From positions 1-22,154 of the IMG/VR virus record IMGVR_UViG_3300032265_000921: a stretch of DNA of 22,154 bases; one strand, written 5' to 3'. The notes under the pieces were generated by a model. That model had not been told where the DNA came from, did not search any database, and saw only the letters and a program-made list of their open reading frames with translations. Both the position numbers and the translations under genes were made by a program. The stretch is from a virus. Shown in pieces: positions 805-1,709 of this stretch (the stretch's first letter is position 1; each line of letters starts with the position of its first letter).

Positions 805-1062
805 TCAGTGATTGATTTGAATACAACGTACGTACATTATACATCTGCAATTATCCAAATGTATAGTGCAATTATCCAAAAATTTAGGGGCTTGGATAAT
901 TCGATTTGGAAAGCATGCCTCTGCGATGCGCATGGATGCTAGCTCTCCGTGTGTGTATAGGGTAAACCCTTGCTGAATTAGCCAATTATCCAAAAATTCT
1001 GAAGGGTCAGAGCTTTTATTGAAGTGGCTTTTATGATGGGCATTAAGCACCGCATTTGACAT
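805..1062 (-). CDS. Possible small protein carrying the GGATAATT repeat in frame
   Basis: An 85-residue reading frame (MSNAVLNAHHKSHF...). An AGAGG sequence lies only two bases before the ATG, so the ribosome site is closer than usual. Three of the GGATAATT copies lie in the same frame and are read as Leu-Asp-Asn: FLDNW at about residues 23-27, and KFLDNCTIHLDNC near the C-terminus. A 22-bp sequence matched near 2400 encodes the GFTLYTH region. Tight spacing to the next gene supports translation. The heavy load of repeats could instead mean that this DNA is mainly a cis-acting site with an incidental open frame. No family was recognised. Codon-level conservation in related phages would decide between the two. 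Confidence 0.45.
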   Translation of the reverse strand: MSNAVLNAHHKSHFNKSSDPSEFLDNWLIQQGFTLYTHGELASMRIAEACFPNRIIQAPKFLDNCTIHLDNCRCIMYVRCIQINH

Positions 1063-1218
1063 AGCCTCTCTTAATTATTTTAAAGAAGGTCTGACCCTCT
1101 AAAATAGTGGATAATTGGATAATTGGATAATTAGGATACATAAGTGGTTGATTTATATACGTTTTGCTAATTATCCACGTGCCTCTTTTTTAAGCAGGGC
1201 TTGGATAATTGGATAATT
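849..1218. repeat. Array of ten GGATAATT/AATTATCC octamers (iteron-like)
   Basis: Copies lie at 849-856, 870-877, 894-901, 984-991, 1109-1116, 1117-1124, 1125-1132, 1169-1176, 1203-1210 and 1211-1218. They occur on both strands. Three are head to tail at 1109-1132 and two at 1203-1218. A longer 14-bp unit (TGCAATTATCCAAA) repeats at 846 and 867, and a 15-bp unit repeats at 870 and 984. The copies at 1106-1114 and 1171-1179 read TTATCCAC(T/G), one base from the classic DnaA box TTATCCACA; most others read TTATCCAA. The local sequence is AT-rich. This organisation fits a replication origin with iterons, or an operator array; the choice between them is inference. Confidence 0.8.
950..971. repeat. 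Left copy of a 22-bp inverted repeat
   Basis: These 22 bases are the exact reverse complement of 2390-2411. They contain a 12-bp palindrome, AGGGT-AA-ACCCT, at 959-970, of the kind bound by a dimeric repressor. This copy lies inside the GGATAATT array and inside the 85-residue reading frame. Confidence 0.85.
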
Positions 1219-1223
1219 GCAAA

Positions 1224-1709
1224 TTAAGCCTCGATCTGAGCTTCTTGATTACGAACGGCATGAGCCTTGGAAACTGCATTGATGATCTCAGTACAGACCG
1301 CTTTCATTTGCATGAGCATGGACAATTTAGCATTGGACACAAGCGAGCCAGTCTTTTTATCCATGCGATATCCGCCAGACTTGGACAACTTTACAGTCAT
1401 GATCTTGGCTTCTAAGAGATCAGGCAAAGACTCGAACGATGCACGATTAGAGATAACGATGGGCTCACCAAGGTTGATAGCTAACATCTCGCCAAGAGGA
1501 CGATAGTTAGAATTCATGCAGTGTTGAGCAACTTCTACGAAACCAGTCTGCGATGCGCTCTCACGGATTGCAGTGCCTACCTTACCACGAACATTTAAGC
1601 AAGCAGTCAAAGCGGACGATGATGCTTGGCGAACTACGGATAATTGACGATCAGCCTTGGTTTTGCCGTCGACATTGATGATGATTGGGTTGATTGTGAT
1701 GTTTGACAT
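1224..1709 (-). CDS. Unknown phage protein, first gene of the leftward operon
   Basis: A 161-residue protein starting MSNITINPIIINVDGKTKADRQ. I chose this ATG because AAAGGA stands six bases before it. Upstream GTG and ATG codons in the same frame (to 1766) lack a ribosome site and run into an inverted repeat. The body is alternating helix and strand, with SFESLPDLLEAKIMTVKLSKSGGYRMDKKTG in the middle and a helical, alanine-rich C-terminus (LSMLMQMKAVCTEIINAVSKAHAV). No signal peptide, membrane helix or catalytic motif is visible. Being promoter-proximal in a block of small genes, it could be an early or replication-associated protein, but I do not recognise it. The GGATAATT array begins a few bases after its stop codon. 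Confidence 0.75.
   Translation of the reverse strand: MSNITINPIIINVDGKTKADRQLSVVRQASSSALTACLNVRGKVGTAIRESASQTGFVEVAQHCMNSNYRPLGEMLAINLGEPIVISNRASFESLPDLLEAKIMTVKLSKSGGYRMDKKTGSLVSNAKLSMLMQMKAVCTEIINAVSKAHAVRNQEAQIEA

Follow-up and report, generated by a model that had tools for sequence, protein, structure and literature searches.

The array of ten GGATAATT copies found at positions 849-1218 of the window (i.e., the whole 22,154-nucleotide stretch of viral DNA analyzed here) is very likely a replication origin, combining iterons, an IHF consensus and an AT-rich region, in a clade of ~60-kb tailed phages with circular assemblies, which are uncultured and come from water. This reading, drawn from sequence comparisons, is favored because lineage-specific repeats are clustered, an AT-rich core coincides with a triple tandem of the repeat, an IHF consensus lies beside it and replication genes co-occur with the array. 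In such an origin, a phage initiator would bind the octamers and IHF would bend the DNA next to the triple; the AT-rich stretch would open, and a helicase and a primase would be loaded there. The sequence-only reading had proposed an iteron-like phage origin recruiting a host or a phage initiator. The conservation of the array, its AT-rich core, the IHF consensus and the replication module support the phage-initiator part of this proposal, and the host DnaA part had to be abandoned.

Organization of the Octamer Array

On both strands of the window, GGATAATT occurs 11 times, compared to a mean of 0.98 and a maximum of 5 copies in the shuffled window. Ten of these copies are located within 849-1218 (at 849, 870, 894, 984, 1109, 1117, 1125, 1169, 1203 and 1211), in the order - - + - +++ - ++. 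They had been correctly recognized from the sequence, and none had been noticed elsewhere in the window. An eleventh copy is present at 1638-1645, within a 161-aa gene. As this copy is found in relative L007 and is absent in relative L004, it is probably incidental.

Iteron 1 (849-856, minus strand, reading AATTATCCAA on the plus strand) is identical in L004 and L007. Iteron 2 (870-877, minus), located 21 bp from iteron 1, iteron 3 (894-901, plus), iteron 4 (984-991, minus) and iteron 8 (1169-1176, minus) are octamer matches which were compared with the same two relatives. Head-to-tail runs with an 8-bp period are formed by iterons 5-7, a triple (1109-1132, plus) kept down to 37-38% TerL identity, and by iterons 9-10, a double (1203-1218, plus) of which only the first copy is complete in L004. 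The triple lies in the lowest-GC 60 bp of the window (1100-1159, GC 0.23), a candidate unwinding element, along with a perfect IHF consensus, AATCAACCACTTA (1141-1153, minus), which is a predicted site.

Alignment of 32 arrays revealed two further conserved elements between iterons 3 and 4: the block CGCATGGAT (929-937), whose columns are mostly >95% conserved, and the palindrome AGGGTnnACCCT (959-970). The latter is included in a perfect 22-bp inverted repeat, AAGGGTTTACCCTATACACACA, which is present at 950-971, inside the array, and again at 2390-2411, upstream of an RHH/Arc-like gene (2452-2610). Another palindrome, GTGTGTATACACAC, lies over the RHH promoter region in relatives (near the RHH start in, e.g., L029, L062 and L081), recurs in the early region and looks like an RHH operator. 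Rfam and tRNA searches returned no match.

Both TTATCCAC(T/G) extensions, which had been put forward as near-DnaA boxes, are indeed present in the window. They were rejected as such, the C after TTATCCA not being conserved and the relatives containing mostly TTATCCAA. Similarly, the words of other lineages (TTAGACAA, TTAATCCAA) are unlike a DnaA box, and the window contains no TTWTNCACA box (0 versus 3.6 expected), which argues against host DnaA as the initiator.

Conservation of the Array Among Relatives

Relatives (80) were gathered by a TerL-based search. Between the window and L007, octamer positions are all identical (80/80), compared to 54% identity for the remaining array DNA and 95% for the neighboring gene. 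Between the window and L004, the identities are opposite, with ~95% for the array and 70% for the neighboring gene, indicating a recombination break between the two. The 85-residue frame (805-1062) contains in L007 indels of 13, 8, 3, 2 and 1 bases across its length and, as these break the frame, does not appear to be a conserved gene. The array is thus kept as DNA while this frame varies, as the sequence-only reading had envisaged, and these comparisons point to selection at the DNA level.

Clustering, as opposed to scattering, of the octamer was also borne out in complete genomes. In complete relatives of 59-62 kb, the word of the lineage occurs 5-10 times, with all copies or all but one in a single cluster of ~300-350 bp. 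The window-type word is present in 9-10 copies in ~60-kb relatives, nearly all within one ~340-bp cluster, and GTCTAATT is likewise confined to one cluster per genome in other lineages. Two of the ~60-kb relatives have 127-bp identical ends.

The orientation order, the triple, the IHF consensus and the CGCATGGAT and AGGGTnnACCCT blocks all recur in the unique arrays of relatives. In the 15 genomes examined, including genomes of 61-65% GC, the triple coincides or nearly coincides with the 60-100 bp of highest AT content in the genome; GC skew gives no decision on the origin, since it follows transcription polarity. A perfect IHF consensus, WATCAANNNNTTR, whose four middle bases vary, is found on the minus strand at +31/32 of the triple, 7-8 bp past its end, in 35 of 49 unique arrays (chance about 0.002), and some of the remaining arrays contain it in the opposite orientation. 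Collectively, the array exhibits short, replicon-specific repeat copies grouped in one cluster, an adjoining AT-rich unwinding region (by composition) and a site for a DNA-bending protein, IHF or HU (by consensus), as do iteron origins. The DnaA box, which is common in plasmid origins but not universal, is lacking, and this was hence not counted as excluding an iteron origin.

No clear array was recognized in G052, G056 and G057, which are more distantly related. A search of genome_contigs for the exact triple gave 19 matches. These come from unrelated bacteria and archaea and include several long simple tandem repeats; the match in G021 was dismissed as a chance AT-rich run without array.

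The array is located between the divergent early (leftward) and late (rightward) genes. It had also been considered as an operator array for the leftward operon. In this case, the octamers would be bound by a phage repressor or activator governing the two divergent promoters, early and late, and IHF would act as an architectural helper. This fits the location of the array, but a separate dispersed element (TATACACAC / GTGTGTATACACAC), overlapping the RHH promoter region in relatives, is already operator-like. Furthermore, the layout stays constant beside differing neighboring genes, the triple of G019 is reversed relative to terL, and an operator would not need the genome-wide AT minimum found at the triple. 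An operator function is thus unlikely. The gene beside the array (1227-1709, minus strand) is replaced by unrelated-looking sequences among relatives, with W/G007, G009/G005 and G013/G004 types.

A packaging site bound by the small terminase with the help of IHF, comparable to lambda cosB, appears very unlikely. It would account for an IHF consensus and repeated sites near terS and terL, the distance from the array to the downstream terL being 1.8-3 kb in most genomes. Against it, G019 has the same word with a TerL of only 38% identity and no detectable TerS homologue, the TerS sequence does not track the word, and the contig ends of several independent relatives cluster ~1.2 kb from the array, at about -815 from terL, which is a better terminus candidate. 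This cluster of ends possibly corresponds to a genome terminus or to an assembly break. In L025, L026, L029, L031 and L032, the contig ends (window ~2290-2370) are located within GC-rich sequence immediately preceding TCTTACAGCA.

The arm sites of lambda resemble short tandem repeats with IHF, and the combination of short tandem repeats and IHF consensus in the array recalls them. An attP-like site with arm-type repeats and IHF for a tyrosine recombinase is nonetheless extremely improbable: an integrase (PF00589) is encoded in 2 of 10 genomes and is absent from the circular G007, G009 and G019, so that the integrase belonging to a lambda-type attP is mostly lacking.

Variation of the Repeated Word

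Within the favored reading as a replication origin, the repeated word itself differs between lineages, having changed in a stepwise manner. In relatives, GTCTAATT, GGATTAAT, GGATATTA and GGATTATT occur with the same layout and at the same place, and some arrays mix two words. The word types found are TTGGATAATT, TTGTCTAATT, TTGGATTAAT, TTGGATATTA and TTGGATTATT, with a TTGTCTTT-like word in G040. When each copy of the tandem triple is coded as A (any GGAT-type word, as GGATAATT) or C (GTCT-type, as GTCTAATT), triples are distributed as AAA (32), AAC (4), ACC (3) and CCC (11), and several CCC arrays have retained A in their flanking copies. No copy of GTATAATT, the single-step intermediate, is present; GGCTAATT is present five times.

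Since the word differs between lineages, its reader must either change in parallel or accept two or more words. It is conceivable, if somewhat doubtful, that iteron specificity has been caught in the middle of a switch, either by copy-by-copy replacement under an initiator reading both words or with two readers sharing one origin.

Replication Genes and Candidate Initiator

In G019 and G020 (TerL 37-38%), the array is kept together with a polymerase, an SNF2-type helicase, a PrimPol-DUF927 protein, nucleases and small replication proteins. Through this replication module, cultured relatives could be named, i.e., Pseudomonas phage Rollin and four Rhizobium phages. Rollin displays the same elements with another word, TTGCATACTT: of its 9 TTGCATA copies, 8 are within nt 260-680, three of them in tandem at 9 bp. 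An IHF consensus is located at 324, and the sequence at 521 is very rich in AT. In the Rhizobium phage RHph_TM3_14A, no clear octamer cluster was found; the only two perfect IHF sites of the genome flank its AT-richest intergenic stretch. In the early operon of this phage and of G007, G009 and G020, a MoxR-like ATPase and a DUF2201 metallopeptidase/VWA protein are jointly conserved.

The PrimPol-DUF927 helicase (~1000 aa), encoded in the early operon, is reasonably likely to be the initiator; its C-terminal winged helix would recognize the octamers in a SaPI Rep-like manner. The helicase gene lies outside the window and is deduced from relatives. Pfam identified DUF927 in this protein, and PriCT_2 exceeded its cut-off in a single one of the scanned orthologues; the primase part is assigned from motifs in the sequence and from a PDB match of low significance (E 0.14). 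Profile matches were obtained with SCCmec Cch (6e-16) and SaPI Rep (2e-11). As the model of the full-length 1012-aa protein was poor (pLDDT 61), the C-terminal model alone (pLDDT 83.5) was used. The folds that it matched best were those of SaPIBov1 Rep (E 4e-5) and Cch (5e-4); TM-scores remained low (0.31-0.36), reflecting a different arrangement of the domains. Relatives thus encode a DUF927-type helicase with a Rep C-terminal fold in the same genomes as the array. The C-terminal domain of SaPI Rep reads iterons (PMC7581432), and the winged helix at the C-end of such primase fusions has been proposed as origin reader (PMC5862659). The homologue from RHph_TM3_14A (MN988472, 42239-45322) carries the annotation putative integrase.

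Columns separating A-word from C-word phages number 3 in the primase and 0-2 in other families, and no residue of the shared proteins tracks the word convincingly. G895K, in the winged-helix region, was rejected as a word-tracking residue, as it holds in one clade only and is broken by G019 in a second alignment. Neither TerS nor RHH was retained as octamer reader, since neither of them varies in sequence along with the word.

Comparison With Known Origins

The ori/crr of phage P4 contains octamer iterons, and its alpha protein is a fused primase-helicase. Both properties are shared with the array and its candidate initiator, which differ by having a single site. The SaPI origin and its Rep (SaPIBov1 Rep; SCCmec Cch) are similar in having short clustered iterons and a DUF927-type helicase, the C-terminal region of which provides the closest fold among solved structures. 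In contrast to SaPI, the array belongs to tailed phages, the primase is fused to the helicase, an IHF consensus is present and several words are used across lineages. In addition, the SaPI origin adjoins rep, whereas the array is >20 kb from the candidate helicase gene in G007 and G009.

In the plasmid origins of pSC101 and R6K gamma, the iterons are close to an IHF site and to an opening region rich in AT (PMC5043065), a combination also found here with an IHF consensus nearby. Unlike these origins, the array is composed of 8-bp tandem runs in both orientations, lacks a DnaA box and has a different kind of candidate initiator; its 8-bp spacing is not helically phased, whereas most plasmid iterons are. 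The lambda ori likewise has phage iterons beside an A+T-rich opening region of ~40 bp, but these are 19-bp inverted repeats read by O protein dimers (PMC5043065) instead of octamers. No described origin of this kind, i.e., with iterons and IHF or with iterons in a PrimPol phage, was found in the literature searched.

If this reading is correct, the array would provide a sequence-defined origin for a widespread group of uncultured phages and would link SaPI-type initiator helicases to tailed phages. The natural series of origins would also make the evolution of initiator-iteron specificity, and the possible replication compatibility of co-infecting phages, directly testable.
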